Assembly: GCA_013821985.1 (NCBI GenBank) | Contig: PNJQ01000007.1 | Span: 1-64,000 of the forward strand | Length of the DNA stretch: 64,000 nucleotides | Source of the DNA: Opitutus sp. | Lineage (GTDB): Bacteria > Verrucomicrobiota > Verrucomicrobiia > Opitutales > Opitutaceae | Reading direction: 5' to 3' | Shown here: positions 3,136 to 57,067 of the stretch, piece after piece | How positions within the stretch are numbered: the first letter of the stretch is position 1 | Layout of the letters: each line of letters begins with the position of its first letter | Position numbers and translations under genes: made by a program | Notes under the pieces: model-generated | Databases searched by the model: none | Told to the model about the DNA's origin: nothing | Seen by the model: only the letters and a program-made list of their open reading frames with translations

Positions 3136-3159
3136 CCCGCCCAGCATCACACTCGAGCG

Positions 3160-38324: not shown

Positions 38325-38432
38325 CTGCTCGGCGCCGCCGTTCGGGCAGGTCGTTGTGTTTGATTTTTTTCCGCGATGTCTCCCACCCATTTCCAACTTC
38401 CCGATCCCGACCCGTAGCATCGCCCCGTGCGA

Positions 38433-38463
38433 AGCGCTCCGTTCCACGCGGAGCGTTTTTTTC
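38433..38463 (+). terminator. Rho-independent-type terminator upstream of glycosyltransferase gene
   Basis: CGCTCCG ttccacg CGGAGCG TTTTTTT, about 60 bp before the 38523 ATG. Confidence 0.6.
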
Positions 38464-38522
38464 GGCGCGCGCCTGCCCGCGGCGCGCCGGCCCGACTTCG
38501 CCCGGCCGCGTCCCACCCACGA

Positions 38523-39839
38523 ATGAACCCACCTCCCATGTCTGTCCCACCATCGAATCTGATCTCCACCGCCCGTCACCCCACTTACCCCACCTCCCTC
38601 CCGTCCTTCCGCGCCGCGCCCGCGCCGCGTTCACCCGGCTCCGCTCCGGTGCCGGCGGAAAATGCTCCGCTCATCGCCTTCTGCCACCTCGGCTGGGACG
38701 GTGTGTGGCAGCGTCCGCAACAATTTCTCTCCCGGCTCGCCGCGACGCACCCGGTGCTGTTTGTCGAGTGCCACTGCAGTCCCGTCGCGCACAGCACGCT
38801 GCGCGGTTACACGCCGGCGGGTCATCCGAATGTCACCGTCCTGCAGATGCTTTTGCCTGCGGCGCGGTGGAGCGATGGAGCGTTCATCGATGCGGAGCGC
38901 CGGCGCCTGTTGGAAACCTTTCGCCGCGGCGACCTCGGGCGCTTCGATCACCCGATCCTGTGGTTCAACGACCCGATGGCCGTAACCGCCTTCGCCGGCC
39001 ACTGCGGCGAGCGCGCCATCGTTTACGATTGCATGGATGAGCTGGCGCAGTTTCGCGGTGCGCCGCCGCAACTCGCGGTGCGCGAACTCGAGCTGATCCG
39101 CCGCGCCGACGTCGTGTTTTGCGGGGGCCGCCGCATGCGCGAAAAACGACTGCCGCATAATCGCAACACGCACTTCTACGGCACCGGCGTCGATCTTGCG
39201 CATTTTGGGACGGCCCGCTCCTCGGAACTTCCCGTCGATCCACAAATCGCCGCGTTGCCCGGCAAAGTGCTCGGCTACTTCGGCGTGATCGATGAGCGGA
39301 TCGATTACCTTCTGCTCGCGCAGCTCGCCGCCGCGCTGCCGGAGTGCTCGATCGCAATGGTGGGTCCGCACGCGAAGGTCGATCCGGCGGATTTCCCGCG
39401 CGCGAAAAACCTGCACTGGATCGGCCGGCGTGATTACGCGGACCTGCCGGCCATCACGAAAGGCTGGGCCGTGTGCCTGATGCCCTTCGCGCTGAACGAA
39501 GCGACCGAATACATCAATCCGACCAAGGCGCTCGAATACATGGCGACGGGCCGCCCCGTCGTCTCCACCGCAATCAACGAGGTGAAGTCGAACTTCGCCG
39601 GCGTGTCGCGCGTCGCGTCGTCTCATGCGGAATTCATCCGGCAATGCCGCGAGGAGTGTCGCCGGCCGAGCCGCCTGCGCATCCGCCGCGGGCTGGCGCT
39701 GTGCGCGCAAAACACCTGGGACGCGATCGCCGCTCGCATGGACGAGCACCTCATCGCGGCGGTCCACGCGCGCGAGCAGAACGTGGAAACCGTCGTCGCA
39801 CAGGCCTCCGCCGTGGGGGAAAGGCGCCACCATGTTTGA
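38523..39839 (+). CDS. Glycosyltransferase, GT-B fold
   Basis: IAFCHLGWDGVWQRPQQFLSRLAATHPVLFVE...IVYDCMDELAQF...ADVVFCGGRRM...ALEYMATGRPVVSTAINEV. Confidence 0.85.
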   Translation: MNPPPMSVPPSNLISTARHPTYPTSLPSFRAAPAPRSPGSAPVPAENAPLIAFCHLGWDGVWQRPQQFLSRLAATHPVLFVECHCSPVAHSTLRGYTPAGHPNVTVLQMLLPAARWSDGAFIDAERRRLLETFRRGDLGRFDHPILWFNDPMAVTAFAGHCGERAIVYDCMDELAQFRGAPPQLAVRELELIRRADVVFCGGRRMREKRLPHNRNTHFYGTGVDLAHFGTARSSELPVDPQIAALPGKVLGYFGVIDERIDYLLLAQLAAALPECSIAMVGPHAKVDPADFPRAKNLHWIGRRDYADLPAITKGWAVCLMPFALNEATEYINPTKALEYMATGRPVVSTAINEVKSNFAGVSRVASSHAEFIRQCREECRRPSRLRIRRGLALCAQNTWDAIAARMDEHLIAAVHAREQNVETVVAQASAVGERRHHV

Positions 39840-40956
39840 TTACCTTATCGTCGGCGCGGGCTTCGCGGGCAGCGTGCTCGCGGAGCGCCTCGCGCGCGGC
39901 CTCAACAAAAAAGTCCTGATCTGCGACCGGCGAAATCACATCGGAGGCAACGCCTACGACTGTCACGACGCCGCGGGGATTCTCATTCACCGCTACGGTC
40001 CGCACATTTTCCACACGAATTCCTGGGACATCTTCAGCTACCTGAGTCGGTTCACCGAATGGCGCCAATACCAGCATCGCGTCCGCGCGTGCGTGGATGG
40101 CCGGCTCCTGCCGATCCCGATCAATCTCGATACGGTCAACGAGCTCTACGGCCTTCAGCTCGATCCGCAGGGGATGAAGGAATACCTCGCGTCCGTCGCG
40201 GAAAAGAAATCCGAGATCCTCACTTCCGAGGATGTCGTCATCTCGACGGTCGGCCGCGACCTCTATGAGAAATTCTTCCGCCACTACACGCGCAAGCAGT
40301 GGGCGCTCGATCCTTCCGAACTCGACGCGCAGGTCACCGCGCGCGTGCCAGTGCGGTTCAACCGCGACGACCGCTACTTCACGGACAAATACCAGGCGAT
40401 GCCCGCGCGCGGGTTCACGCATATGTTCGGCAACATGCTCGACCACCCGAACATCAAGGTCCTGCTGAACTGCGATTATCGCGAGATCGCCGATGACGTT
40501 GCTTACGGCTCGTTAATTTTTACCGGCCCCGTCGATCAATACTTCGACTATTGCTACGGCGAACTCCCGTATCGCTGCCTCGAGTTCAAACACGAGACGC
40601 ATCACAAGCCGGTTTTTCAATCCGCGCCGGTCGTCAATTACCCGAACGAATACGCCTACACGCGCTGCACGGAGTTCAAGTATCTCACGGGGCAGGAACA
40701 CGCGGCGACGAGCATCGTTTACGAATTCCCCTGCGCGGAGGGCGATCCGTATTACCCGATCCCGCGGCCCGACAACGCCGCCCTCAACAAGAAATATCAG
40801 GCGCTCGCCGAGGACACGCCAAACGTCCACTTCGTCGGCCGGCTCGCGACGTATCGCTACTACAACATGGACCAAGTCGTCGGCCAGGCGCTCACGCTGT
40901 TCTCGAAGATCAGCGGCGCGACCCGCACGCAAGCGACCGAGGCAGCGCTGGCATGA
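39832..40956 (+). CDS. glf: UDP-galactopyranose mutase
   Basis: MFDYLIVGAGFAGSVLAERLARGLNKKVLICDRRNHIGGNAYD...GPHIFHTNSWDIFSYLSRFTEW...FTGPVDQYFDYCYGELPYRCLEF...GRLATYRYYNMDQVV. Confidence 0.97.
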   Translation: MFDYLIVGAGFAGSVLAERLARGLNKKVLICDRRNHIGGNAYDCHDAAGILIHRYGPHIFHTNSWDIFSYLSRFTEWRQYQHRVRACVDGRLLPIPINLDTVNELYGLQLDPQGMKEYLASVAEKKSEILTSEDVVISTVGRDLYEKFFRHYTRKQWALDPSELDAQVTARVPVRFNRDDRYFTDKYQAMPARGFTHMFGNMLDHPNIKVLLNCDYREIADDVAYGSLIFTGPVDQYFDYCYGELPYRCLEFKHETHHKPVFQSAPVVNYPNEYAYTRCTEFKYLTGQEHAATSIVYEFPCAEGDPYYPIPRPDNAALNKKYQALAEDTPNVHFVGRLATYRYYNMDQVVGQALTLFSKISGATRTQATEAALA

Positions 40957-41113
40957 GCGGAATTCCTCTAGTCGGTTCCAAGGTGGTCGCCGCTGTCCAC
41001 AGGGGCGACGCGTGCGCCGCGTTCATGGCGCCGCTGGGGACAGCGACGCCCACCTGCGCCGCCGTGCGCAATGCCCGCGCCCGGCTTCCGTCTTCCGTCC
41101 CCCGTCCTCGGTA

Positions 41114-43954
41114 ATGGACCTCCGCTCACCCATTCCGCGTCCCGAATACCCGCGCCCTGACCGCCAGCGCGGGCTGGTCGAGGGCATTGACTGGTTGAAT
41201 CTCAACGGGCCGTGGCAATTTCGCTTCGATGCCCAGCGCGCGGGCGTGGACGAGGAATGGTTCGCCGTGGACGGACCGGACTGGCGCGACCAGATCATCG
41301 TGCCGTTTTGCTGGGAATCGCTCGCGGCGTGGGGCGAGGGCGACGCGGCGGGCAATGACAACTACTACGCCACGCGCGTGTTCCTCGATCCCGTCGCGGT
41401 GACGCGGGAGAACTATCGCGCGGCGCCGCGCTATGAGGTCGGCTGGTATCGGCGGAGCTTCGTCATTCCGACCACGCCCGTCTGGCAAAACCGCCGTCTG
41501 ATTCTCACAATCGGCGCCGCCGATTTTTTCACGACGCTGTGGTGCAACGGCGTGCTCGTCGGCGAACGCGAGGGCGGCTACGTGCCGCTCGAGTTCGATC
41601 TCACCGACGCGCTCGCGCAAACCGATCCGGCGCGCGCGCTCATCGTTATCCGCGTGGAGGATCCGATGGACAACTCGGAGCAGCCCGTCGGCAAGCAATG
41701 GGGCTGGTATATGCCGACGAGCGGAATCTGGCAGACGGTCTTCGTCGAACCTCGGCCGGCAGTGACGATCGATCATTTTCGCGCCGTGCCGAACATCGAC
41801 ACCGCGAGCGTCCAGTTCGAGGTGCATTGCTGCAACACCGGCGCGAGCACAACGCTTACCGCGGAAATCATTCCGCCCGACGCGCCACGCTTCAAGATCA
41901 CGCTTCCGATCGCAGACGGCGTGGGGCAGGGGGCGGCGGAGCTCGCGCCGCTCACCCTCTGGGACCCGGCTGCGCCCAAACTCTACCGGGTCATTTTTCG
42001 CCTCAAGCACGGCGGCCTCGAAGACGTGGTGCGCGGCTACTTCGGCATGCGCAAGATTCACAGCGCGCCCGTGCCGGGCGGGGATGACAAGTCGCCCGCG
42101 ATCCTGCATCTCAACAATCAGCCGATCTACCTGCGCGGCGCGCTTTATCAGTCGTATTTTCCCGACGGCATCTACACCCCCCGCGATGCGCAGACGTATC
42201 GCGACGACGTGGCGTTCGCGCGCGAGAGCGGCTTCGATTTTCTGCGTGTCCACATCAAGCTCGACGACCCGCTCCTGCTCTATCACGCCGACACCGTCGG
42301 CATGCTGCTGATGCAGGACATCCCGAATTTCGGCGAAGGCGGCGACACGCCGACTGGCCGCCGTCGCTTCGAGGAGATGCTGATCGAGGGCATGCAGCGC
42401 GACTTTAACCACCCATCGATCATCGCGTGGTGCATTTTCAACGAGACGTGGGGCTTTGGCGGCCAGAATGAGTTGATGAAATTCATCGCGCCTGCGCTCA
42501 GCCAGAAACTCACGCGCGCGGAGATGCAGGAGAAGATTGCGAACTCCGAGTCATTCCAATGGGTCCACAAAGTCTGGCAACTCGCCAAGGCCCTCGATCC
42601 CACGCGGCTGATCGAGGACATGAGCGTCGTGGCCTGGGAGCACCTCGCGGCCTACGGACACGTCGATACCGACATCAATTCCTGGCACTTCTACATCGAC
42701 AACTACGAGAAGGCGAAGGCGCACATCGAAAACGTCGTGGCGCAAAGCTACCGCGGCTCCGCGTTCAACTATGTCGAGGGTTACCAGCAGAAGAACGCGC
42801 CGCTGATCAATTCCGAGTATGGCGGCTCGGGCGCACTCGATGGCGATCGCGACATTTCGTGGACGTTCAAGTTTCTCACCAACGAACTCCGCCGCCACGG
42901 CGCACTCTCGGCCTACATCTTCACCCAGCTCACGGACGTCGAATGGGAATACAACGGCCTGCTCAACTACGACCGCACGCGGAAGCAGCTCGGCTATCCC
43001 GCGACGTTCATCAACCAGGGCGACGTGCTCCCGATCAATGCGCCGCCGATGGCCGAAGTCAGCCCGGGCGCGGAGATTCGCATCGACGTGTCCTCGTCCC
43101 ACTTCTCGCGTCGTCCGCGCGAAGGCGTGACGTTGCACTGGCAATACGGCGGTTTTGACACGCTCGGCACGGCGCACGGTGAACTCGCGCGCGGCTGGGC
43201 GCCGATTCCCTTCCCGCAGTATCGCGTCGAGCCGGCGCAGTCGATTCGGCTCATCGCACCCGACCAGCCGATGCTCTGCACGCTCTGGGTGGCGGCGATC
43301 ACGCGCGAAGGCGAGACGGTCGCGACGAACTTCGTGCAGCATTTTGTTACGACCGGACCGTTGCCCGAGCGCGAGGAGCGGGGCCGCACGCTCGTGCTGC
43401 GGCGCCATGCCGACCGGTGGGACGCGGCCGAATGGTCGCAGGCGCTCTCCACCCGCGAGCAGGCGGCAAAAACCTGTCGCGTCGGCGGACGCGGACACGG
43501 CTTTTTCGAATGGAATTTCGACGACCGCGAACTGCAGCGACTCGCGTCCGCACGACGCCTGCGCGTGCTCTGCGAGGCCTCGGCGTGTCGCGAAGATTTC
43601 CCGCAGACCGACAGCCACGTTTATTCGACGAGCTTCGAGTTGAGCCTCAACGGACTGCCGTTGCACCGCGCGCTCTTGCCGAATCACCCGCACGACGCGC
43701 GCGGCGGCCTGAGTTTTCTCAACGACGTGCAGGGCGCCTATGGTTACCTCGTCAATGTCGCGCTCGAGGATGAATCGCTGCGGCGCGTGGCGGAGCTGGC
43801 CAAGACCGAGGGCCGCCTGCGCTTTCGCTGCGCGGTGCCGGAAGCGGCGGCCGCGCGGGGCGGGCTCACGATCTACGGCTACAATTCCGGACGCTACCCG
43901 CTGTGTCCGACATTGATCGTCGAATGGGAACAGGACGAACGGCGCCGTGCATGA
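41114..43954 (+). CDS. Glycoside hydrolase family 2 (beta-galactosidase-like)
   Basis: LNGPWQFRFD; SGIWQTVFVEP; IIAWCIFNETWGFGG acid/base; LINSEYGGSG nucleophile region. Confidence 0.92.
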   Translation: MDLRSPIPRPEYPRPDRQRGLVEGIDWLNLNGPWQFRFDAQRAGVDEEWFAVDGPDWRDQIIVPFCWESLAAWGEGDAAGNDNYYATRVFLDPVAVTRENYRAAPRYEVGWYRRSFVIPTTPVWQNRRLILTIGAADFFTTLWCNGVLVGEREGGYVPLEFDLTDALAQTDPARALIVIRVEDPMDNSEQPVGKQWGWYMPTSGIWQTVFVEPRPAVTIDHFRAVPNIDTASVQFEVHCCNTGASTTLTAEIIPPDAPRFKITLPIADGVGQGAAELAPLTLWDPAAPKLYRVIFRLKHGGLEDVVRGYFGMRKIHSAPVPGGDDKSPAILHLNNQPIYLRGALYQSYFPDGIYTPRDAQTYRDDVAFARESGFDFLRVHIKLDDPLLLYHADTVGMLLMQDIPNFGEGGDTPTGRRRFEEMLIEGMQRDFNHPSIIAWCIFNETWGFGGQNELMKFIAPALSQKLTRAEMQEKIANSESFQWVHKVWQLAKALDPTRLIEDMSVVAWEHLAAYGHVDTDINSWHFYIDNYEKAKAHIENVVAQSYRGSAFNYVEGYQQKNAPLINSEYGGSGALDGDRDISWTFKFLTNELRRHGALSAYIFTQLTDVEWEYNGLLNYDRTRKQLGYPATFINQGDVLPINAPPMAEVSPGAEIRIDVSSSHFSRRPREGVTLHWQYGGFDTLGTAHGELARGWAPIPFPQYRVEPAQSIRLIAPDQPMLCTLWVAAITREGETVATNFVQHFVTTGPLPEREERGRTLVLRRHADRWDAAEWSQALSTREQAAKTCRVGGRGHGFFEWNFDDRELQRLASARRLRVLCEASACREDFPQTDSHVYSTSFELSLNGLPLHRALLPNHPHDARGGLSFLNDVQGAYGYLVNVALEDESLRRVAELAKTEGRLRFRCAVPEAAAARGGLTIYGYNSGRYPLCPTLIVEWEQDERRRA

Positions 43955-44864
43955 GGTGATCATCATCGGAGCCGGACCCGCGGGGTTGAACGCCGCGCTG
44001 ATCCTCGGCCGCTGCCAGCGCGATGTGCTCGTGCTCGACTCCGGCAAGCCTCGTAACGCCGCCTCGCGCGCGCTGCACGGCTTCCTCACGCGCGACGGCG
44101 CGCCGCCGATGGACCTGCGGAAGTGGGGCCGCGATGAGATCGCGCGTTACCCGAGCGTGAAATTTCGCGACCTGCCTGTCACGGGCGTCGAGCGGAGCGA
44201 CGGCGGCTTCGAATTGAAGCTGTCCGACAACTCCACTGAACGCGCGCGGCTGCTGCTGCTCGCCACCGGCCGGGTGGATGTCGTGCCGGAAGTCGCGGGC
44301 TTTACGGAATTCTACGGACGCGGCGTGTATCATTGTCCGTATTGCGACGGGTGGGAGCATCGCGACCAGCCGCTGGTGGTTTACGGCCGGAACGATTCTG
44401 CGGCGTCGCTCGCGCTCGGGCTGCTGACGTGGAGCCGGGACGTGACCGTTTGTGCCGATAGTCGGCCGGACTGGAACGCAGAGCGGCAAGTCGAACTCGA
44501 GCGCAACGGCATTGCGGTGGTCGAGAACCAGGTGCGTGCCGCCGAAGGGCACGAACGACTCCAGCGGTTGACTTTCGCGGACCGCGACGCGCTCGCGTGC
44601 TCGGCCGTATTTTTTTGTTCAGATTGCCTGCAACGCTCGACTTTGCCCGAGCGGCTCGGCTGCGAATTCGATGACGACGGCAACGTCCGCTGCCAGCAGA
44701 TGGCGGCGACGAACGTTCCTGGCCTTTTCGTCGCCGGCAATGTGCGCGGCGGCATCCACCTCGCGATCATGGCTGCGGCGGAAGGCGCCGAGGCGGGCAT
44801 CGCAATGAACGAAGCGCTCCTCGACGCCGAACTCGCCGCGGCGAACTCGCCCGCCGCGACCTGA
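43947..44864 (+). CDS. FAD-dependent thioredoxin-reductase-like oxidoreductase
   Basis: EVIIIGAGPAGLNAALILGRCQRDVLVLDSG; YHCPYCDGWEHRDQPLVVYG; GLFVAGNVRGG. Confidence 0.9.
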   Translation: MHEVIIIGAGPAGLNAALILGRCQRDVLVLDSGKPRNAASRALHGFLTRDGAPPMDLRKWGRDEIARYPSVKFRDLPVTGVERSDGGFELKLSDNSTERARLLLLATGRVDVVPEVAGFTEFYGRGVYHCPYCDGWEHRDQPLVVYGRNDSAASLALGLLTWSRDVTVCADSRPDWNAERQVELERNGIAVVENQVRAAEGHERLQRLTFADRDALACSAVFFCSDCLQRSTLPERLGCEFDDDGNVRCQQMAATNVPGLFVAGNVRGGIHLAIMAAAEGAEAGIAMNEALLDAELAAANSPAAT

Positions 44865-44986: not shown

Positions 44987-45577
44987 TCACGCCGCCGTGA
45001 CATTGATGCGGGTCAAACGCGCGGAATCGCGGGACAGTTCGAGCGTGCTGACGGAGGCAAGCGACACCTCGAAACGCTGCCAGTCATCGAGCGGCGCGCC
45101 GCTGAAATAAAGCAGCGCCGCACGGATCGGTTCCGCGTGCGACACGACGATGACCGATTGGTTGGGCAACTCGTCCCGCCAATCGAGCAGCGCGCCGACG
45201 AAGCGCGCCTGCACGGCGAGCATCGTCTCGCCGTTCGGCGCGCGCGTGCCGCTGCGGAAACGGTTAAAGCGTGCGAAGCACTCGTCCGCTGCCAGTTCCG
45301 CCGGCGTGCGGCCCGTCCAATCGCCAAGTTCCATTTCCGTGAACCCGTCCACGACGTCGATCCCGAGTCCTTTGTCGCGCGCCAGCGGCGCCGCGGTTTC
45401 CCGCGCGCGCTCGAGTGGACTGCTGAAAATGCGCGAAATCGCTGCCCGTTCGAACAAGGCCACGAGTCGTTCCGCCTGCGCGCGCCCGCGGTCGCTGAGG
45501 TGAACGCCGGGCGTTCGGCCGGCGAGCACATCGGTGCCGATCTTCTCGGCGTGACGCACGAGGTGAAAAGTCGTCAT
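44987..45577 (-). CDS. Histidine phosphatase (phosphoglycerate-mutase-like)
   Basis: TTFHLVRHAEK; SSPLERARETAAPLA; VIVVSHAEPIRAAL. Confidence 0.9.
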   Translation of the reverse strand: MTTFHLVRHAEKIGTDVLAGRTPGVHLSDRGRAQAERLVALFERAAISRIFSSPLERARETAAPLARDKGLGIDVVDGFTEMELGDWTGRTPAELAADECFARFNRFRSGTRAPNGETMLAVQARFVGALLDWRDELPNQSVIVVSHAEPIRAALLYFSGAPLDDWQRFEVSLASVSTLELSRDSARLTRINVTAA

Positions 45578-45704: not shown

Positions 45705-46913
45705 TCACGGGTGAATGGAGAGCGAAGGAGCGACGGCGCCGTCGGTCTCGACCGTGGTTTCCCCCGCGGGCGCGGGAGGAGTTGCGGCGCTCGCCGGCTC
45801 CTCGCCGCGGATGAACGCGGCGGTGCGCTCGCGCGCGTCGTGGTCGGTGAACTGTTCCGGCGGCGACTTCATGAAGTAGCTCGACGGCCCGGTCAGTGGG
45901 CCGGCGATGCCGCGGTCGAGGGCGAGCTTGATGCAGCGCACGGCGTCGATCACGACGCCCGCGGAGTTGGGCGAGTCCCACACTTCCAGCTTCACCTCGC
46001 ACTTCAGTGGCACGTTGCCGAACGTCGTTCCGTTCATGTGGATGTAGCACCACTTTTGGTCGGCGAGCCACGGCACGAAATCGCTCGGGCCGACGTGCAC
46101 GTCGTCGGCTTTCATCGGCGTGCCGAGCTGGCTGGTGACGGCGTTGGTCTTGGAAATCTTTTTCGAGTCGAGCCGCTCGCGTTCGAGCATGTTCAGAAAA
46201 TCCGTGTTGCCGCCGAAGTTGAGCTGGTAGGTGCGGTCGAGCCGCACGCCGCGTTCGCGGAAAAGATTCACAAGTGCGCGATGCGTGATCGTCGCGCCGA
46301 CCTGCGATTTGATGTCGTCGCCGATGATCGGCAGGCCGCGGTCGCGGAAGCGCTGCTGCCAATACGGCTGCGAGGCGATGAACACCGGGATGCAATTCAC
46401 GAAGCCGCAACCGGCTTCGAGTGCCTGCTCGACATACCACTTCGTCGCCATCTCGGAGCCGACGGGCAGGTAGGAAACGACGACGTCAGTTTCGGTGCGG
46501 CGGAGGATGTTGATGATGTCGTCGGTCGGGCCGGGTGCCTTGTCGATTTTCAGGCTGAGGTATTTGCCGAGGCCGTCGTGCGTCATGCCGCGATGCACCG
46601 GGACGCCGAGGCGCGGGACGTCGGCGAAGCGATAGGTGTTGTTCGGCGCGGCGTAGATCGCCTCACCGAGATCGAGGCCGACTTTGTGGCGGTCGATGTC
46701 GAAGGCCGCGGTGAACTCGATGTCGCGCACGTGATAGCCGCCGAGCGACACGTTCATGAGTCCCGGCACGGTGTCGGTGTCGCGCGCGTCACGGTAGAAG
46801 TGAACGCCTTGGACAAGCGAGGAGGCGCAGTTGCCCACGCCGATGAGCGCGACGCGGACTTTGCGGGTGGAGCGGCGGTGATCGTGACGCGGAGGAGCGG
46901 GTGGACGGGACAT
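45705..46913 (-). CDS. Inositol-3-phosphate synthase (myo-inositol-1-phosphate synthase family)
   Basis: [78 protein letters not shown]. Confidence 0.93.
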
Positions 46914-46933: not shown

Positions 46934-47875
46934 TCAGTCAGTGAACACGAGCGGGGCGTCGCGCTCGCTGGCGACGGAGGCTCTGGCCGGCGCGTAACGG
47001 CGCACCATGCGCGCGCAGAACTCCGCGTATTCCTCGAGGAATTGCGGCGGACTCGTGTGATGCGGTTCGATTCCGCGGTGCTCGGGCGTGAAACAAAACG
47101 TCACGGTCACATCGAACTCGGCGAGCGCTTCCATTTGCCGGTCGAACCAGGCGTCGGCGTTCGGTCGGAAGCTGTCCGCCCAACTCAGGCCGGTGCGGAG
47201 ATGGCGCACGCCGAGCTCGCGCAAGCGGCGCACGCCTTCATCGAGGCGCGGGTCCTCGAAATGAAACCACTGACAGATGCCCAGCTCGGGCGTGAAGCGG
47301 TGAAATTGTCCGTAAGCGGGCTTCTCGGTGCCGTCCTCGCGCACGAGCCCCATGTAGAAATGGCGGTAGTAGGACGAGCCTTCCGCTTCCTTGTGGCGGG
47401 TGGTTGCCGGCCACGCCTTCGGCAAATCGAACAGGCTATACCAATGCACGCGCGGCACGCGGCCGCCGAGCAACTCGGCCGTGCGCTCGAGGCCGAACAC
47501 CTGCACTTCCTCGGCACCGAATGTTGAGATGCCGACCTCGGAAACCCACACCGGGAGATCCGTCACCGCTTCGATCTCGGCGATCTTGGCGGGCCACTCG
47601 TTGAGCTGCCAGTGGTTCCAATCGAGGGGGAATCCGTGCACGGCGACGACGTTCAGGCGCTCCAGGACACCGAAGCGTTGCATGCGCTGGATAAACAGTG
47701 GGTCGATCGGCGAGATGCCGCCGAGCACGCGCATCAGCGCGGGGTTTTCCGCGGCGACGGCCTCGGCGGCGAGATTCACCATCGCGGCGAATTGACGCCA
47801 TTCCGGGTCGTGCTCGGCGAACGCCCAGTGCGACTTGTTGTTCGGTTCGTTCCAAAACATCACGGCTTCGATCAT
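46934..47875 (-). CDS. Glycosidase-like TIM barrel (clan GH-A motifs) in circularly permuted order
   Basis: N-terminus [17 protein letters not shown] (acid/base strand beta4), [12 protein letters not shown] (nucleophile strand beta7), C-terminal half [23 protein letters not shown]...[16 protein letters not shown]...[18 protein letters not shown] (beta1-beta3). Confidence 0.8.
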
Positions 47876-47919: not shown

Positions 47920-48762
47920 TCAAGGAGCGGATGCAACGGTGCGCTCGGAAGACGTGGTTGGCAGCCGGGCTTCCCGGCGGTGGAAAACGGGCGCTGCGGC
48001 CCGCGTTCCGCCGACCTCGAAGACAGGCGGGGCAGGACTTTCCTGCTGGGCGAGCAACTGCAGCGCCGCCCGATAACCGTGCAGCGTGCCGACATCGACG
48101 TAGGCTTCGCCGGCGCGAACGCCGACCGCCTCGCCGCCGCGCGCCAGCCACGCATTCACAAGCGTGCCGAAATATTCGTCGCCTCGCCCCGGCTCGCACC
48201 ACAGCGCGTGCAGTTCACGCAGCACGCTGCCGGGCATCTTGAAGCCGCCCCAGACCCACGACGAACGCGGCGCGGGCTGCTTCACTTGGATTTCCTCCAC
48301 GAAGCCTGTGTCGTCCGTCACGACCGCGTCGAAAAACTGCGGCTGCTCCACGGGAAAGAGAAGAAACGACAGCACGTCGTCCGGCAGTTCGTTAAAGCCG
48401 TGCGCGGGGAACCAAATCGTATCGGGCAGGCCGACGAGCACGGTCTCGTCCCGGGCAATAAGCGGCAGTGCGCGGAAGATCGCGTCGCACAATCCGGCCG
48501 GCTCGGGTTGCACGGCGTAGGCGATCTCGGCCGCGCCGATGCGACCGCCGTAATAGGAAAGGATGTCGGACTTCTCGCGTGAGATGACGAAGCAGAGTTT
48601 GTTCGCGCCGGCGAGGAGCATGCGCTCCACCAGGTGTTCACTCACGGCGCGGGGTCGTTCGACGCCGTCCTGGAAACGGCTGCCGACCGGCAGCAGTTCC
48701 TTGGAGAACGCGAGCGGTTGGATGCGGCTGCCGGCGCCGGCGGCGGGAATGATGCCCCACAT
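47920..48762 (-). CDS. Sugar-phosphate nucleotidyltransferase
   Basis: MWGIIPAAGAGSRIQPLAFSKELLPVGSR...DETVLVGLPDTIWFP...AYVDVGTLHGYRAA. Confidence 0.92.
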   Translation of the reverse strand: MWGIIPAAGAGSRIQPLAFSKELLPVGSRFQDGVERPRAVSEHLVERMLLAGANKLCFVISREKSDILSYYGGRIGAAEIAYAVQPEPAGLCDAIFRALPLIARDETVLVGLPDTIWFPAHGFNELPDDVLSFLLFPVEQPQFFDAVVTDDTGFVEEIQVKQPAPRSSWVWGGFKMPGSVLRELHALWCEPGRGDEYFGTLVNAWLARGGEAVGVRAGEAYVDVGTLHGYRAALQLLAQQESPAPPVFEVGGTRAAAPVFHRREARLPTTSSERTVASAP

Positions 48763-48765
48763 GGT

Positions 48766-49854
48766 TCAGCGCTCCGTGCCCGCGAACTGCGGCGCGTGCC
48801 GCGCTTCGTCGAGCAGTTGTTCCAGTTCCGCGGCGCGATGCGTGGCGGTGTGTTCGGCGAGGACGCGTGCGCGCGCGCTCCGGCCCGCAAACGTGAGTTC
48901 CGCATCGCTCAGATCGAGCAGGCGCAAAACGTCCTCGGGGCCGCGGGCCACGAAGATTTCCTTTTCCGGATGAAAAAATTGGTCGAGGCCTTCCCACCAA
49001 TCGCTCACCACGGGCGCGCCGCAGGCCGCCGCTTCAAACAGCCGGCCGCTCGGACAGTAGCCCATCGCCTTCATGGCGCGGCGCGTGACGTTGAGCGTGA
49101 GCCGCGATGACGAGAAGAACGCAGGGTGTTGGGCCGGTTCGAGGTGTTGCACGAAGAAGATGTTCGGCTGCCACGGAAAGTCCGTCGGGTATTGCGCGCC
49201 GCCGATGAGGAAGCGGCGATGGCGAGCACAGCGCGCCGGCTCGATGAAGAGCGCCTCGAGCGTCCCCTGTCGGTCGGCGGCGTAGGTGCCGAGGTAGGAA
49301 AGATCCGCGAAGAAGCGCGCGTGCGGCGTGGCCGGGCGGTGCACGTCGGGATCGACGCTGCCGTAAAGCGGTGCGACGTGCCGCGCGCCCAGGCGCGTGT
49401 GGAGTTCATCCAGCGCGCTGCCTCCCGTGTAACTGAGCACGAGGTCGTAGCCGGCGAGTCCGTTCGGGCCGAGGTAATCGACGCGCCCGGTCTGCAACGC
49501 GTCGAGCGTCACCGGCGTGTCGAGATCGTAGAAGACGCGCAGCGCGTTCGCTTCGCCCAGCAACTCCGCCGCGGCGAGCGCGTCGGCGCAGTAGGAAGTG
49601 ACAATCGCGGCGTCGGCGTCGGCGAGTTCACGCGCCGCGATTGGGCGCACTTGTTCCCAAGCGGCATAGAAGACAAGGCGGCCGCCGGGCATCTCGTGGA
49701 GATCGCGGTGGGCGGCGTAGTAGGGGCGATCCTGCTCGAAAAACGTCACGTCATGTCCGCGAGCGGCGAGCGCCCGGCAGAGCGCGCGCCACAGCGTGGC
49801 GTGGCCATTGCCCCAGGAGGAGCTGATGGTGAGTCCAAAGATGACGAGCTTCAT
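48766..49854 (-). CDS. CgeB-like glycosyltransferase (copy 1)
   Basis: MKLVIFGLTISSSWGNGHATLWRALCRALAARGHDVTFFEQD...FYDLDTPVTLDAL...RLTLNVTRRAMKAMGYCPSGRLFEAAACGAPVVSDWWEGLDQFF. Confidence 0.87.
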   Translation of the reverse strand: MKLVIFGLTISSSWGNGHATLWRALCRALAARGHDVTFFEQDRPYYAAHRDLHEMPGGRLVFYAAWEQVRPIAARELADADAAIVTSYCADALAAAELLGEANALRVFYDLDTPVTLDALQTGRVDYLGPNGLAGYDLVLSYTGGSALDELHTRLGARHVAPLYGSVDPDVHRPATPHARFFADLSYLGTYAADRQGTLEALFIEPARCARHRRFLIGGAQYPTDFPWQPNIFFVQHLEPAQHPAFFSSSRLTLNVTRRAMKAMGYCPSGRLFEAAACGAPVVSDWWEGLDQFFHPEKEIFVARGPEDVLRLLDLSDAELTFAGRSARARVLAEHTATHRAAELEQLLDEARHAPQFAGTER

Positions 49855-50325
49855 CGAGTGTTTCCTCCGCTGGCGGGAGCGGCGCCGCGCAGGCGCGTGA
49901 GGGCTTTCAACTGGATCCGCGGCATGTGAGTTGTTGAGTCCGGCGCGCGCCCGCCGGGTTCGCGCGAATCGCGCCGGAAATTGCGGGTCGATTTCTGGGG
50001 CGGTTGCCGGAACCGCGCGCGGGAGGAAAATTTGGGCGCGCGCGAGTTTCGCTCTGCGTGCCGGGGAGCACCGGAAGAGAATCGCCGGACACGGGACGAC
50101 AGAGCTCCCACCAATTTTCACTCTGCGCACGCCGGCCCACGCCTCACCGCCCGCATGAGGTTCGACGTGGGATGCGCGCAAAAAATTCCACGTCGCGCCC
50201 GCCGATCGCAATTCGACCGCGCGGAACCTTTGTAGCTGCCGCGCGACTAGGCCGAAAGTTCTGCGGTCGTCCCGGTGTCGAAGTTACCTCGGCCGGTTCG
50301 CCGCACGCATTCCCTTTATGGCTTT

Positions 50326-51447
50326 ATGGCAAAACGCATCTTAATCACCGGCGGAGCCGGATTCATCGGTTCCCATTTGGCGGACAATCTTCTGCAACAC
50401 GGCTACGAGGTGCGCGCGCTCGATTGCCTGTCCTCGCAGGTCCACGGCGAGCACGCGCGCCGGCCCGACTACCTCGATCCCGACGTCGAGCTGCAGGTCG
50501 GCGATGTGCGCGATCCGGTCGCGGTGCGACGGGCGCTCGAAGGCGTGGACGCGGTCTATCATTTTGCCGCGAAGGTTGGCGTCGGTCAGAGCATGTATCA
50601 GGTCGCGGACTACACCGCCGTGAACAACGAGGGCACCGCCGTTTTGCTCGAGGCGCTGATCGAGCGTCCGGTCGAGCGGCTGATCGTCGCCTCCAGCATG
50701 AGCATTTACGGCGAGGGACTTTATCGCACGCCCGCCGGCGAACTCATCTCCGGCGCCGAGCGCGGGCTCGCGCAACTGCAGATGCACGACTGGGAATTGC
50801 GCACGTCGCGCGGCGACACGCTGACGCCGGTCCCCACGCCCGAAACGAAATCGCCTGCGCTCGCCTCGGTTTACGCGCTGGGCAAATACGACCAGGAACG
50901 CATGTGCCTGCTCGTCGGACGCGCCTACAAGATTCCCACCGTCGCGCTGCGCTTCTTCAATGTCTATGGGCCGCGTCAGGCGCTTTCGAATCCCTACACG
51001 GGCGTGCTGGCAATCTTCGCCGCGCGCTATCTCGCGGACCAGCCCCCGGTGATTTTCGAGGACGGGTTGCAGCAGCGGGATTTCGTCAACGTGCGCGACA
51101 TCGCAGAAGGCTGCCGGCTCGCGCTCGAAGTCACGCGGGCCGCCGACAAGGTCTTCAATCTCGGCAGCGGCGAACACTTCACGGTGCGCGCCGTGGCCGA
51201 GCGTATCTCCGCCGCGCTGGGGAAGGAGCACATCGAGCCGCGCATTGCGCAACAGTATCGCGTCGGCGACATCCGGCATTGTTTCGCCGACATTACACTC
51301 GCGCGGCGCGTGCTCGGCTACTCGCCGCAGGTCGCGTTCGACGAGGGCCTCGGCGAGCTCGCCGAGTGGCTGCAGGGTCGCACGGAGAGCGCGCAGCCGG
51401 CCGCCGATGCCGGCACGGAACTCGCCGCGCGGGGGCTGACCGTATGA
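50326..51447 (+). CDS. NAD-dependent epimerase/dehydratase (extended SDR)
   Basis: MAKRILITGGAGFIGSHLADNLLQHGYEVRALDCLS; SVYALGKYDQERM (YxxxK); FFNVYGPRQALSNPYTGVL. Confidence 0.93.
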   Translation: MAKRILITGGAGFIGSHLADNLLQHGYEVRALDCLSSQVHGEHARRPDYLDPDVELQVGDVRDPVAVRRALEGVDAVYHFAAKVGVGQSMYQVADYTAVNNEGTAVLLEALIERPVERLIVASSMSIYGEGLYRTPAGELISGAERGLAQLQMHDWELRTSRGDTLTPVPTPETKSPALASVYALGKYDQERMCLLVGRAYKIPTVALRFFNVYGPRQALSNPYTGVLAIFAARYLADQPPVIFEDGLQQRDFVNVRDIAEGCRLALEVTRAADKVFNLGSGEHFTVRAVAERISAALGKEHIEPRIAQQYRVGDIRHCFADITLARRVLGYSPQVAFDEGLGELAEWLQGRTESAQPAADAGTELAARGLTV

Positions 51448-52415
51448 CCGGAGGCACCGCTCGCGCCGCCGTCTTGCAGGGCCCGCGCGCCGCCGCGGTC
51501 GAGCGAGCGCCATTGCCGCCGCTCGGCCCGCGCGAGGTGCGCGTGCGCCTCGAAGGTTGCGGCGTGTGCGGCTCAAATCTCCCGGTCTGGGAGGGGCGTC
51601 CGTGGTTCAAATATCCGCTCGCCGCCGGGGCGCCCGGTCACGAAGGGTGGGGGCGCGTTGCTGAAATCGGAGCCGAGGTGGAAAGGATCGCGGTCGGCCA
51701 GCGCGTCGCGGCGCTCTCGTATCAGGCTTTCGCGGAGTTCGATGTCGCCGAGGCATCGAACGTCGTGGTCCTTCCACCGGAGTTGGACGGACAACCATTC
51801 CCCGGCGAGGCGCTGGGGTGCGCAATGAATGTATTCCAACGCAGCGACATTCGCGCGTGGCACACGGTGGCGGTCGTCGGCGTCGGTTTCATGGGTGCCG
51901 TGCTCGTGGCGCTCGCGGCAAAAGCCGGTGCGCGCGTCATTGCGATTTCGCGCCGGCCGTTCGCACTCGAAATCGCGCGGCGCATGGGCGCGACGGAAAC
52001 GATCGCGCTCGGCGAGCGCGCCGCGGTCGTCGGCGCCGTGCGCGAATTGACCGGCGGCGGCGGTTGCGAGCGCGTGATCGAAGCGACGGGCCTGCAGGAG
52101 CCGTTGCACCTGGCCGGAGAACTCACGGCGGAGCGCGGCCGGTTGATTATCGCGGGATTTCATCAGGACGGCCTGCGCGAGGTGAATCTCCAGCTGTGGA
52201 ACTGGCGTGGGCTCGACGTCGTGAACGCGCACGAGCGCGATCCGCGCGCCTATGTCGCCGGCATGCGCGCTGCGGCCGACGCCGTCGCGCGCGGCCGGCT
52301 CGATCCGCGGCCGCTCTACACGGACCAATTCCGTCTCGACGAAATTGCCCACGCGCTCGACGCGATGCGCGATCGCGACGGCGCCTTTCTTAAAGCGTTG
52401 CTCACGTATGATTGA
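51444..52415 (+). CDS. Medium-chain (zinc-binding) dehydrogenase
   Basis: RLEGCGVCGSNLPVWEGRPWFKYPLAAGAPGHEGWGRVAEIG; VAVVGVGFMGAVLVALAAKAGARVIAIS; lacks the structural-zinc Cys cluster. Confidence 0.88.
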   Translation: MTGGTARAAVLQGPRAAAVERAPLPPLGPREVRVRLEGCGVCGSNLPVWEGRPWFKYPLAAGAPGHEGWGRVAEIGAEVERIAVGQRVAALSYQAFAEFDVAEASNVVVLPPELDGQPFPGEALGCAMNVFQRSDIRAWHTVAVVGVGFMGAVLVALAAKAGARVIAISRRPFALEIARRMGATETIALGERAAVVGAVRELTGGGGCERVIEATGLQEPLHLAGELTAERGRLIIAGFHQDGLREVNLQLWNWRGLDVVNAHERDPRAYVAGMRAAADAVARGRLDPRPLYTDQFRLDEIAHALDAMRDRDGAFLKALLTYD

Positions 52416-53463
52416 AACTTCGTCCACTTCCTCCGGCGCGACGCTCACCGCGGCCCGCCCCGTCTCCCCTGTTCCGCCGCGCCTCGGTTTTGCCGGGGTT
52501 GGCTGGATTGGCCGCAATCGCCTCGAAGCCATTGCGCACGCGCAGGCCGGCGAAGTCGCCGCGGTGTTCGATCCGGTCGTCGAAGCCGCGGCCGGCATCC
52601 AGCGCACGTGGCCTGACGTGCAGTGCGTCGGCAACTTCGACGAGTTGCTCGCGCTGCCGCTCGATGGCATTGTGATTGCCACGCCGAACATGTTGCACGC
52701 GGAGCAGACGATCGCGGCGTTGCGCAGCGGCAAGGCGGTGTTTTGCCAGAAGCCGCTCGCGCGCACCGGACGCGAGACGCGCGATGTGGTCGCCGCGGCG
52801 CGGGCGGCCGATCGGCTGCTGCACGTCGATCTCTCGTATCGTTTCCACACCGGCATGCAGCGCATTCGCGACCTCGTGGCGTCCGGCCGACTCGGCCGCA
52901 TTTACGCGGTCGAAGCGTGTTTTCACAATGCCTACGGGCCGGACAAGCCGTGGTTCTACGACTCGCGGCTCTCGGGCGGCGGCTGTCTGCTCGATCTCGG
53001 CATTCACCTGATCGACCTCGCGCTGTGGTGCCTCGATTTTCCCTCGGTGAAAAGCGCGTGCGGTCACCTGAATTGCCGCGGCGCGCTGGTGCGGCGGGAC
53101 TCGGGCGCGGTCGAGGATTACGCGGCCGCGCAACTTTCGCTGGCGAACGGCGCAAGCGTGCAACTCGCGTGTTCGTGGCGCGCGCCGGCAGGCTGCGACG
53201 CGCAGATCGGCGTGACGTTTTTCGGCACGGAGGGCGGCGCGTCGTTTCAGAATGTCGGCGGTTCGTTCTACGATTTTCGCGCGGAGCATTTCCTGCCCGA
53301 TCGCTCGCGCCGCTTGCTCTCCGAGCCACCGGATGCCTGGGGTGGCCGCGCCGCCGTCGCGTGGGCGCGGCAACTCGCGGACGACGCGGGCTTCGATCCG
53401 CAAATCGCGCAGCTCAGCGCCGTGGCAGAAACGATCGATCGCATTTACGGACGCAGCGCATGA
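52408..53463 (+). CDS. Gfo/Idh/MocA family oxidoreductase
   Basis: RLGFAGVGWIGRNRLEAIAHAQAGEVAAVFDP; AVFCQKPLARTGRETRDVVAAARAADRLLHVDLSYRFH; GGGCLLDLGIHLIDLALW. Confidence 0.93.
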   Translation: MIETSSTSSGATLTAARPVSPVPPRLGFAGVGWIGRNRLEAIAHAQAGEVAAVFDPVVEAAAGIQRTWPDVQCVGNFDELLALPLDGIVIATPNMLHAEQTIAALRSGKAVFCQKPLARTGRETRDVVAAARAADRLLHVDLSYRFHTGMQRIRDLVASGRLGRIYAVEACFHNAYGPDKPWFYDSRLSGGGCLLDLGIHLIDLALWCLDFPSVKSACGHLNCRGALVRRDSGAVEDYAAAQLSLANGASVQLACSWRAPAGCDAQIGVTFFGTEGGASFQNVGGSFYDFRAEHFLPDRSRRLLSEPPDAWGGRAAVAWARQLADDAGFDPQIAQLSAVAETIDRIYGRSA

Positions 53464-54584
53464 CTCCACCCGCACCTCAGCGCATCCTGATGACCACCGA
53501 CGCGGTCGGCGGCGTGTGGCATTATACGCTGGAGCTGTGCGCAGGACTCGGCGCGCACGGTGTCGAGGTGGTGCTCGCGTCGATGGGACCGCGGCCGTCG
53601 GAGGCGCAACGCGCCGCCGCGCGCGCGCTCGGCAACGTCACACTCGTGGAAAGCGATTTTCGCCTCGAGTGGATGCCGGCGCCGTGGGACGACGTGCAGC
53701 GCGCCGGCGAGTGGCTGCTGCAACTCGAGTCGGACTACGCGCCCGATCTCGTGCACCTCAACGGCTACGTTCACGCCGCGTTGCCGTGGCGCGTGCCGGT
53801 GCTCGTCGTCGGGCACTCGTGTGTGTTCTCATGGTGGGAAGCGACGCACGGGACTGCGCCGCCGACCGAGTGGAGCGAGTATCGCGCGCGGGTGCAGGCG
53901 GGCTTGCAGGCGGCGGATCGCGTCGTTGCCCCAAGCCACGCGATGCTTGCGGCACTCGAGCGGCATTACGGCGCGTTGCGCCGGGCGGAAGTGATCGCGA
54001 ACGGGCGCAATCCCGCACAATTCAGTCGCGGCCTGAAGAAGCCGTCGGTTCTCTGCGTGGGCCGGTTGTGGGATGAAGCGAAAAACGCGCGGGTGCTCGC
54101 GGAGATCGCACCGCGTCTGCACTGGCCGGTGGAACTCGCCGGCGACACGACGGCACCGCACGGCATCACGGACAGGCCCGACTTTCCGAATGTCGCCTTG
54201 CTCGGCCCGTGTTCGCCGGCACGCGTGCGGGCGTTGCTCGCGCAGGCCTCGATCTACGCGCTCCCGGCGCGTTACGAGCCGTTCGGGCTGTCGGTCCTCG
54301 AGGCGGCGCTTTCCGGCTGCGCTCTCGTGCTGGGCGATCTCCCAAGCCTGCGCGAGAATTGGGACGGCGCGGCGGTATTTGTCGCCCCCGACGATGCCGA
54401 CGGACTCGTCCGCGAACTCGCCTGGCTGATTGGTCGGCCGGAGGCGGCGAATCTTTGGGCGCAGCGCGCGCGTGAACGGGCGGCCGAGTTTTCCGCCGTG
54501 CGCATGGTCACAAATTATCTTGCGGCTTACGCCGACTGTCTCACGCCGCGCGCCGCGGCCCAGGTCGAAAGCATTCCGGCATGA
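53460..54584 (+). CDS. Glycosyltransferase family 4
   Basis: ILMTTDAVGGVWHYTLELCAGLGAHGVEVVLASMG; PSVLCVGRLWDEAKNARVL; RYEPFGLSVLEAALSGCALVLGDLPSLRENWDGAAVFV. Confidence 0.93.
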   Translation: MTPPAPQRILMTTDAVGGVWHYTLELCAGLGAHGVEVVLASMGPRPSEAQRAAARALGNVTLVESDFRLEWMPAPWDDVQRAGEWLLQLESDYAPDLVHLNGYVHAALPWRVPVLVVGHSCVFSWWEATHGTAPPTEWSEYRARVQAGLQAADRVVAPSHAMLAALERHYGALRRAEVIANGRNPAQFSRGLKKPSVLCVGRLWDEAKNARVLAEIAPRLHWPVELAGDTTAPHGITDRPDFPNVALLGPCSPARVRALLAQASIYALPARYEPFGLSVLEAALSGCALVLGDLPSLRENWDGAAVFVAPDDADGLVRELAWLIGRPEAANLWAQRARERAAEFSAVRMVTNYLAAYADCLTPRAAAQVESIPA

Positions 54585-55747
54585 AGATCCGACTTTTTTA
54601 TCACTCGCTTGTCTCCGACTGGAATCACGGCAACGCGCACTTCCTGCGCGGCGTCGCGAGCGAATTGGTCGCGCGCCGTCACGATGTCGTGACTTACGAG
54701 CCGCGCGACAGTTGGAGTGCAACGAACCTGGTGGCGGAGCACGGCCGCGCACCCTTGCGGAAGTGGCGCGAGGTTTATCCGCGGCTGAAGTCCGTGCGCT
54801 ATGATGCGTCGAAAGTGAACTATGAGCGGCTGGTGCGCGGCACCGACCTCGTGATCGTCCACGAGTGGAATCCCCCCGAGTTGGTCGGTGCGCTTGGGGC
54901 TTTGCGGCGCAAGCACGGCTTTGTGCTGCTCTATCACGACACGCATCACCGCCTGATCACGGAAACGTCCGCGATGCACGCCTGCGACCTCAGCGCTTAC
55001 GACGGCGTGCTCGCTTACGGCGAAGTGTTGCGCCGCATCTACGTGACGGAGCGCGGTGTCCGACGGGCGTGGACCTGGCATGAGGCGGCGGACACGCGGG
55101 TGTTCAAGCCGCTCGCCGGCGTCGAGCCAGGTGGCGACCTGGTTTGGATCGGCAACTGGGGTGACGACGAGCGCTCCGAGGAATTGCGCGAGTTCCTGAT
55201 CGAGCCGGTGAAAAAACTCGGCCTGAAGGCGCGGGTTTATGGCGTGCGCTATCCGGAACATGCGCGCGCGCAACTCGCCGAAGCCGGCATCGAGTATGCG
55301 GGCTGGTTGCCGAATTTCGAAGTGCCGCAGGTCTTCGCGCAGTTCAAAGTCACGGTCCACGTGCCGCGCCGGCCCTATGTGAGGGCCTTGCCCGGCATCC
55401 CGACGATCCGTCCGTTCGAGGCTCTGGCGTGCGGCATTCCGCTCGTGTGTTCGCCCTGGCGCGACACCGAGCACCTGTTCACGCCCGGCAAGGATTTCCG
55501 CATCGCTCGCGACGGCGCGCAAATGGTGCGGCAACTGCAGGCGCTGCTCGGCGATGAGCGCAAGCGGCGCGCGCAGGTGAGGCACGGATTGAAAACGGTC
55601 CGCGCGCGGCACACCTGCGCGCGTCGCGTCGAGGAACTGCTCGCGATCCACCGGCAGGTGCTCGCCGAGCGGAAGGCGGTCGTCGTGCCGGCCGCACGCC
55701 TGTTCCGCCGCAAGCCCGCCGCCGCGCACGAAGCCACGGCGGGTTAA
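54581..55747 (+). CDS. CgeB-like glycosyltransferase (copy 2)
   Basis: MKIRLFYHSLVSDWNHGNAHFLRGVASELVARRHDVVTYEPRDSW; IPTIRPFEALACGIPLVCSPWRDTEHLFTPGKDF. Confidence 0.85.
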   Translation: MKIRLFYHSLVSDWNHGNAHFLRGVASELVARRHDVVTYEPRDSWSATNLVAEHGRAPLRKWREVYPRLKSVRYDASKVNYERLVRGTDLVIVHEWNPPELVGALGALRRKHGFVLLYHDTHHRLITETSAMHACDLSAYDGVLAYGEVLRRIYVTERGVRRAWTWHEAADTRVFKPLAGVEPGGDLVWIGNWGDDERSEELREFLIEPVKKLGLKARVYGVRYPEHARAQLAEAGIEYAGWLPNFEVPQVFAQFKVTVHVPRRPYVRALPGIPTIRPFEALACGIPLVCSPWRDTEHLFTPGKDFRIARDGAQMVRQLQALLGDERKRRAQVRHGLKTVRARHTCARRVEELLAIHRQVLAERKAVVVPAARLFRRKPAAAHEATAG

Positions 55748-55863
55748 CGCGCCGAAATTTGCCATGACTGTTGAAATTAGAACCAGGGATATCGCCCGCG
55801 CCGGAGCTCTTGACGCGCAGAGGGACCTGCGCGTCCACCTTTTGCGCGTGGAAAGCTGGCAGG

Positions 55864-55890
55864 GTGGGCGGGCAGGTCCCTCTGCCCGCC
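55864..55890. repeat. Dispersed hairpin repeat copy 2
   Basis: GGCGGGCAG GTCCCT CTGCCCGCC; perfect 9-bp inverted repeat. Confidence 0.75.
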
Positions 55891-55939
55891 AGGCGGCGTG
55901 CGTCAGCGAACATAAGTGGTCCCCCATCTTCTCGCTCCC

Positions 55940-57067
55940 ATGAACATCGCCTTTTTCGGTTCGAGCCTGGTGTCCGCCTACTGGAATGGTGCGGCGACCT
56001 ACTATCGCGGCATCATCCGGGCACTCGCGGAGCGCGGCCACCGCGTGACGTTCTTCGAGCCCGACGCCTATGAACGGCAACAGCACCGCGATATCGCCGA
56101 TCCGTCGTGGGCGACCGACGTCGTTTTCCCGGCGACGGAGGAAGCGGCGCGTCGCGCCGTGGAAAGCGCGCGCGGTGCCGACTTCGTGATCAAGTGCAGC
56201 GGCGTCGGCGTGTTCGACGAGTTGCTCGAGGAAGCGGTGCTGCAATTGCAAAGCACGCGCACGCTCGTCGCGTTTTGGGACGTCGATGCGCCGGCGACGC
56301 TCGAGCGCGTGCAGAATAATCCGCTCGATCCGTTCCTGGCGTTGATCCCGCGCTACGACCTTGTCCTCACCTATGGTGGCGGCCAGCCGGTGATCGATGC
56401 TTACGAGGCGCTGGGCGCGCTCGAGTGCGTGCCGATCTATAACGCGCTGGACCCGGTGACACATCATCCGGTGCGGCCGGACGCGCGGTTCGCGTGCGAT
56501 CTGGCCTTCCTCGGCAACCGTCTGCCGGACCGCGAGCAGCGCGTGGAGGAATTTTTTCTCGCGGCGGCGCAGGCGCGGCCGGAGCGGCGGTTTCTGCTCG
56601 GCGGAAGCGGGTGGGGCGACAAGGCGCTGCCGCCGAACGTGCGCTATGCGGGGCATGTTTTCACCGCCGACCACAACGCCTTCAATTGCACGCCGCGCGC
56701 GGTGCTCAACATCAACCGCCAATCGATGGCGCGCTACGGCTTTTCGCCTCCCACGCGCGTGTTCGAGGTCGCCGGAGCCGGAGCGTGCCTCATCACCGAC
56801 GCGTGGGAAGGCGTGGAGCTGTTCCTCGAGCCGGGCGCGGAAGTGCTCGTCGCGCACGATGCCGCTGAAGTCGCCGCGCACCTTGACGGCCTCACGCGAG
56901 AGCGCGCCGTGGCGATCGGCCGCGCGGCGTTGCGACGGGTGTTGAGCAAGCACACCTACGCGCATCGGGCTGCGCAGTTCGACGAGTTGCTCGGGCGGAG
57001 GATGCAACCGCGGACGGCGACGCCAGCGACGGCGGCAGGCAACACGAGCGAAAAACCCTGGTTATGA
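55940..57067 (+). CDS. CgeB-like glycosyltransferase (copy 3)
   Basis: MNIAFFGSSLVSAYWNGAATYYRGIIRALAERGHRVTFFEPDAYERQQHRD; FWDVDAPATLERV; TRVFEVAGAGACLITDAWEGVELFLEPGAEVLVA. Confidence 0.87.
   Translation: MNIAFFGSSLVSAYWNGAATYYRGIIRALAERGHRVTFFEPDAYERQQHRDIADPSWATDVVFPATEEAARRAVESARGADFVIKCSGVGVFDELLEEAVLQLQSTRTLVAFWDVDAPATLERVQNNPLDPFLALIPRYDLVLTYGGGQPVIDAYEALGALECVPIYNALDPVTHHPVRPDARFACDLAFLGNRLPDREQRVEEFFLAAAQARPERRFLLGGSGWGDKALPPNVRYAGHVFTADHNAFNCTPRAVLNINRQSMARYGFSPPTRVFEVAGAGACLITDAWEGVELFLEPGAEVLVAHDAAEVAAHLDGLTRERAVAIGRAALRRVLSKHTYAHRAAQFDELLGRRMQPRTATPATAAGNTSEKPWL

Follow-up and report, generated by a model that had tools for sequence, protein, structure and literature searches.

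A predicted circularly permuted GH-A glycosidase of the PslG type in a TIGR04290 methyltransferase cluster of Opitutus sp.

In glycosidases of clan GH-A, the NEP acid/base lies on strand beta4 and the nucleophile Glu on beta7, after an N-terminal beta1-beta3 segment. The gene cpGH of Opitutus sp., located in a stretch of 64,000 nucleotides (hereafter the window; contig PNJQ01000007.1 of assembly GCA_013821985.1), appears to encode these elements in the order beta4-8 then beta1-3, which raises the question of whether this order is genuine and what such a protein would do. A first-pass annotation had proposed the permutation from a series of motifs, all of which are present in this reading frame in the order quoted. 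In public records, the protein appears as 'beta-xylosidase' or as hypothetical, and Pfam returned only a sub-threshold match to Glyco_hydro_cc. The gene and its parts are the following.

46934 to 47875, minus strand: cpGH, predicted circularly permuted PslG/GH39-like glycosidase gene, 313 aa
47294 to 47875, minus strand: beta4-beta8 half (residues 1-194, AlphaFold strands), mapping to PslG 131-300; N-terminal here, C-terminal in canonical relatives
46994 to 47284, minus strand: beta1-beta3 third (residues 198-294, AlphaFold strands), mapping to PslG 25-129; C-terminal here, N-terminal in canonical relatives
47846 to 47848, minus strand: E10 of WNEP, predicted general acid/base; NEP in 128/128 permuted sequences, aligned with WNEPN of PslG
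47537 to 47539, minus strand: E113 of WVSEVG, predicted nucleophile; Glu in 128/128 permuted sequences, aligned with STEWG of PslG

The open frame does run upstream of the cpGH start, as it might if a frameshift, an assembly error or a truncated annotation concealed a normal N-terminal half. However, this extension overlaps the nucleotidyltransferase gene (47920-48762, minus strand) in a different frame, so the N-terminal half cannot come from there, as the first-pass annotation had already argued. A genome scan yielded 451 relatives, of which 80 were kept as the orthologue set, from at least seven phyla (Verrucomicrobiota, Pseudomonadota, Acidobacteriota, Gemmatimonadota, Myxococcota, Nitrospirota and Bacteroidota). 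All 80, complete genomes among them, kept the permuted order with clean starts and ends, beginning with M/V-[IV]-[ED]-[AS] just ahead of WNEPNN and ending soon past RY; in cpGH, a variable tail follows the conserved end. In seven of them (L005, L022, L034, L041, L050, L057 and L067), an in-frame stop was located 0-2 codons 5' of the conserved start, which leaves no room for a preceding N-terminal half. In a 26-sequence alignment, the orthologues were 69-81% identical to the window protein, and no relative was detected in the viral contigs searched. As the orthologues share the order and the clean starts, and no normal N-terminal half was found upstream, a frameshift or assembly error was rejected, and the probability of any such artefact is considered negligible.

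Comparison with unpermuted relatives was based first on L091, a 717-aa frame from a search of the window's own phylum. Positions 191-296 of the cpGH family profile matched this frame at residues 43-150 and positions 3-191 at 152-336; therefore, L091 carries the canonical order. In Smith-Waterman alignments with L091, the cpGH protein scored 287 in its native order and 474 after rotation at residue 195, against a maximum of 67 in 200 shuffles. A custom canonical-family HMM, built from L091 and further canonical relatives, gave two out-of-order matches with the native protein (104.0 and 55.1 bits) and a single colinear match of 172.6 bits (profile 15-299) with the rotated one, the optimum rotations (186-195) falling at the old termini. 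The same pattern was found with PslG, on which the native-order cpGH profile aligned in two swapped stretches (200-294 on PslG 25-129 and 2-163 on 131-300) and the rotated profile in one (8-263 on 25-297, E=4.8e-10); when the canonical rows were added to the rotated profile, the crystal sequence of PslG was matched at E=1.4e-12. Among the GH-A models run across the rotated junction, as had been suggested in the first-pass annotation, Glyco_hydro_cc of Pfam responded weakly (moving from 15.9 to 18.8 bits without reaching its cut-off of 21), and a phmmer search of the PDB with the single rotated sequence gave nothing significant, profiles being needed. The segments are thus colinear with those of canonical relatives in swapped order, they merge into one match on rotation, the order is conserved in orthologues and there is no separate upstream copy of the missing part. 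By sequence comparison, the cpGH product thus has the strand order of a naturally circularly permuted clan GH-A barrel, with PslG the closest among solved structures.

An AlphaFold model obtained with 26 sequences (pLDDT 82.5, pTM 0.84) placed strands at residues 2-7, 48-51, 76-80, 109-114, 143-146, 198-201, 225-231 and 255-261, alternating with helices in eight beta/alpha units that follow the order beta4-8 then beta1-3. The predicted strand order agrees with the swapped-order matches and with that anticipated in the first-pass annotation, whose catalytic pair of NEP and SEVG it also places as expected; closure of the barrel would take place between residues 255-261 (beta3) and 2-7 (beta4). 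In the model, E10 lies in the loop after strand 2-7 and E113 at the end of strand 109-114, so that the NEP Glu ends beta4 and the second Glu ends beta7, as in clan GH-A. A sequential Foldseek search of the PDB gave a GH5 cellulase as the best match, with a TM of 0.38, a value that sequential alignment of a permuted chain is expected to give and that an imperfect model could give as well. As a control, the canonical domain of L010 was modelled; it reached a pTM of 0.51, a low confidence, and was left out of the fold search. This poor result is probably due to an alignment spanning beta4-8 only, MAFFT having failed to place the swapped fragments.

Both catalytic Glu were invariant in all 128 permuted sequences (by pattern match, plus five sequences missed by the pattern and read by eye), and the motifs WNEPNN, HGFP and WYSL were invariant throughout the permuted clade. 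Such an invariance of both Glu in the alignments favours an active enzyme.

PslG of Pseudomonas aeruginosa, a product of the Psl biosynthesis cluster, is a retaining endo-beta-glucosidase of family GH39 (PMC11912335, PMC9075953). Its acid/base is Glu165 and its nucleophile Glu276 (PMC11912335), and the protein is reported to reside chiefly at the inner membrane, a part of it being periplasmic (PMC9075953). It is the best solved-structure relative of the cpGH protein, with the same catalytic pair and a gene also placed within a polysaccharide assembly cluster, whereas it differs in having the canonical order; the cpGH protein is permuted, shorter, without leader and encoded beside inositol and methylation genes. 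Homology to this GH39 member (E=4.8e-10 after rotation) connects the cpGH protein to GH39; the Pfam model of that family, PF01229, did not match it in native or rotated form, and gave E=0.46 with its canonical sister L091. An ordinary GH39 beta-xylosidase degrading plant xylan, as the public label would have it, is nonetheless very improbable. The canonical sister clade is weakly similar by profile to GH39 xylosidases, and those of known structure (1w91/2bs9, 1px8) share with the cpGH protein the clan GH-A and a weak profile similarity around the NEP motif, but they are larger, canonical in order and provided with accessory domains. PslG is also a far better match than the best GH39 xylosidase (E=0.039), the cluster is biosynthetic, without genes for uptake or xylose catabolism, and no leader is present.

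The genes that surround cpGH in the window are listed below.

44987 to 45577, minus strand: histidine phosphatase family protein (PF00300); homologue near cpGH in 54/80 loci
45705 to 46913, minus strand: inositol-3-phosphate synthase homologue, INO1 (PF01658 7e-36; TIGR03450 524 bits, below cut-off 638)
47920 to 48762, minus strand: sugar nucleotidyltransferase (PF00483); near cpGH in 46/80 loci
48766 to 49860, minus strand: CgeB-like glycosyltransferase (PF13524); near cpGH in 46/80 loci
50275 to 51447, plus strand: NAD-dependent sugar epimerase/dehydratase, SDR1 (PF01370)
51381 to 52415, plus strand: zinc-type dehydrogenase (open frame; true start probably after 51447)
52252 to 53463, plus strand: Gfo/Idh/MocA oxidoreductase, inositol 2-dehydrogenase-like (TIGR04380 4e-31, below cut-off; open frame, true start further in)
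53502 to 54584, plus strand: GT4-type glycosyltransferase
54581 to 58185, plus strand: three CgeB-like glycosyltransferase genes (54581-55747, 55946-57067, 57064-58185)
58182 to 59003, plus strand: TIGR04290 family methyltransferase (329.8 bits, cut-off 300)
59000 to 60784, plus strand: MsbA-type ABC exporter (TIGR02203 447 bits, below cut-off 602)

With its methyltransferase scoring 329.8 bits against a cut-off of 300, the window contains a TIGR04290 cluster. In 47 of the 80 loci, this methyltransferase was the first recognised gene upstream of the permuted one, whose commonest neighbours otherwise were INO1, the phosphatase, the CgeB-like glycosyltransferase and the nucleotidyltransferase. 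A literature search on TIGR04290 and its cluster returned nothing relevant. Directly beside the cluster, the region 38427-44864 encodes a UDP-galactopyranose mutase, a GH2 beta-galactosidase-like protein without evident leader and a thioredoxin-reductase-like protein, the last being the sole query of this region matched among the 80 related loci (in one locus, L030). An integrase-core transposase frame (62164-62985; PF00665, PF13683) is located just past the exporter, and the permuted gene was detected in one other genome of the window's family (G189) within a 289-genome sample of the phylum. This sparse occurrence fits a horizontal acquisition of the permuted gene.

In the canonical relatives (L091, L120-L124), the GH domain stands at the N-terminus of a fusion protein and is followed, as the C-terminal half, by an NAD-dependent, CDP-tyvelose-2-epimerase-like epimerase. 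In permuted-type clusters, the epimerase is encoded by a separate gene (13466-14524 in L125, for example), and this stand-alone counterpart matched CDP-tyvelose 2-epimerase 1orr at 4e-82. The fusion was found in Rhizobium, Xanthomonas, Tistrella, Paracoccus, Geminicoccaceae and others. All its clusters share the same glycosyltransferases as the permuted type, and the TIGR04290 methyltransferase was present wherever the fetched stretch reaches that far (not in L121); some clusters add a TIGR04295 radical SAM protein, a UDP-glucuronate decarboxylase and Gfo/Idh with zinc-type dehydrogenases. The TIGR04295 protein, of the B12-binding radical SAM type, was also observed in permuted-type clusters (L125 14521-15807 and others) and was not found in the window. 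After rotation, the window protein is about 30-39% identical to the canonical GH domain, with which it shares the cluster type and the catalytic motifs; the fusion differs in being unpermuted and joined to the epimerase, and no INO1 was found in the canonical-only genomes of either family searched.

A maximum-likelihood tree was built from the canonical sequences, the outgroups and the permuted sequences after rotation; in it, the permuted rows formed one clade (99/95) and the canonical fused rows its sister (100/99). As the outgroups, PslG and GH39 have the canonical order, the permuted order is the derived one. The GH part of the fusion may have been duplicated, its outer pieces then lost and the epimerase separated, a route offered as a guess; the frames collected (128 permuted, 30 canonical) contained no tandem-duplicated GH intermediate. 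In L092 (genome G209), a decayed fragment of the canonical GH domain was observed, as a 193-aa minus-strand frame with beta1 and about beta6-8, without NEP, adjoining Gfo/Idh and epimerase genes of the same cluster kind.

Best-hit labels had led to the expectation that both forms would co-occur, which was rejected since these labels mostly corresponded to stand-alone epimerases without GH domain. An HMM check of the loci first fetched left only L010 with both forms, and whole-genome searches later added others. In L010, from a Myxococcota MAG, the canonical fusion (2695-4920) and the permuted gene (8001-8897) lie within one cluster.

The distribution of both forms was followed in two alphaproteobacterial families. 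In that of the Mesorhizobium locus, TIGR04290 was present in 21/151 genomes, nine with the permuted form only and 12 with the canonical form only; in that of the Skermanella locus, which includes Azospirillum, it was present in 38/82 genomes, 37 of them permuted and one (G409) canonical. Over both families, one and only one form is intact in each of the 59 TIGR04290 genomes (the permuted form in 46, the canonical form in 13), although these genomes share ancestry and the counts are not independent. A canonical form without TIGR04290 was observed in four genomes of the Mesorhizobium family and in one (G440) of the Skermanella family. The homologue of the window INO1 accompanied the permuted form in 9/9 and 37/37 genomes, respectively, against 0/16 canonical and 0/2 canonical-only genomes, which amounts to 46/46 versus 0/18.

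Five of the 37 permuted genomes of the Skermanella family also keep a canonical fusion (L159, L164-L167; genomes G348, G442-G445). Its domain has lost WNEP in all five and also the nucleophile Glu in four, damage that may represent one event. In other genomes with both forms, the canonical nucleophile Glu is replaced by Ala (G337, L010/L129) or NEP by TEP (G336, L131), whereas both forms appear intact in a Pontibacter genome (G346, L130). Thus, the canonical domain was damaged in seven of the eight inspected genomes that also carry the permuted gene. The persistence of damaged epimerase-fused domains in the same system (L164-L167, L159) means that a non-catalytic fold is tolerated there, and the permuted barrel could likewise be a scaffold or a sugar-binding partner of glycosyltransferases. 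This seems unlikely, as both Glu and the WNEPNN, HGFP and WYSL motifs are invariant in the permuted clade, and it was exactly such residues that the decayed domains lost. A single permutation of the GH-A barrel, spread over at least seven phyla with the INO1 module, may have replaced the epimerase-fused unpermuted sister, whose catalytic site then decayed; this history is put forward tentatively, its chances being slightly below even.

The favoured interpretation of cpGH, to which a probability of roughly 0.6 is given, is that of an active, retaining, PslG-like cytosolic glycosidase with a permuted GH-A barrel, serving an inositol-linked branch of oligosaccharide assembly. The old termini would be joined through a short loop after alpha8 and the new ones would lie between alpha3 and beta4, on the barrel face away from the active site; with the cut on that face, the site would be rebuilt unchanged as that of a retaining beta-glycosidase, with chemistry presumably as in PslG. 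As no leader precedes beta4, the protein is probably cytosolic. It would stand in for the canonical GH domain fused elsewhere to the epimerase, and would trim, release or transglycosylate an intermediate of the methylated oligosaccharide that the neighbouring glycosyltransferases, epimerases and TIGR04290 methyltransferase would produce. This branch would also need inositol phosphate, through INO1 and the phosphatase, and its inositol-linked product would be exported by the MsbA-type transporter.

Retaining enzymes can transglycosylate, and the tight link of the permuted form to INO1 and the phosphatase, both at the genome level (46/46 versus 0/18) and in the neighbourhood, would suit an active enzyme acting mainly as a transglycosidase that builds glycosyl-inositol. 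This is rather unlikely, as at least five glycosyltransferases and a nucleotidyltransferase are already encoded in the cluster; the reaction modes themselves cannot be separated from sequence. For the favoured glycosidase, polymer release through hydrolysis would be the most economical guess by analogy with PslG, whose hydrolysis during biosynthesis has been proposed to help polymer release (PMC9075953).

Natural permutation is already known in barrels of GH70 and in the domain order of GH3, and cpGH represents a variant that forms a pair with an unpermuted sister. GH70 glucansucrases belong to clan GH-H. They are circularly permuted GH13 barrels (PMC8398850), thus also glycoside hydrolase (beta/alpha)8 barrels with a natural permutation, and differ from cpGH in clan, cut point and catalytic residues. 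GlyA1, as cited in PMC6887791, is a GH3 beta-glycosidase with permuted domain order; there, according to that citation, whole domains are reordered, whereas in cpGH the cut lies inside the barrel. For clan GH-A, which ranks among the largest clans of enzymes, the literature searched, incomplete in coverage, gave no natural permutant of the barrel.

The permutation explains the faint detection of the cpGH family by profile libraries and its 'beta-xylosidase' labels. With an unpermuted sister in homologous clusters, the cause, cost and functional equivalence of a barrel permutation become directly testable, and cpGH adds a case to the open question, raised for PslG, of why polysaccharide assembly clusters keep a glycosidase (PMC9075953). 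If the tentative history of replacement given above is true, a single pathway step would be performed by a permuted enzyme in some bacteria and by an unpermuted one in others. The cluster also points to a glycan pathway, inositol-linked and so far uncharacterised, that soil and rhizosphere bacteria would have in common.
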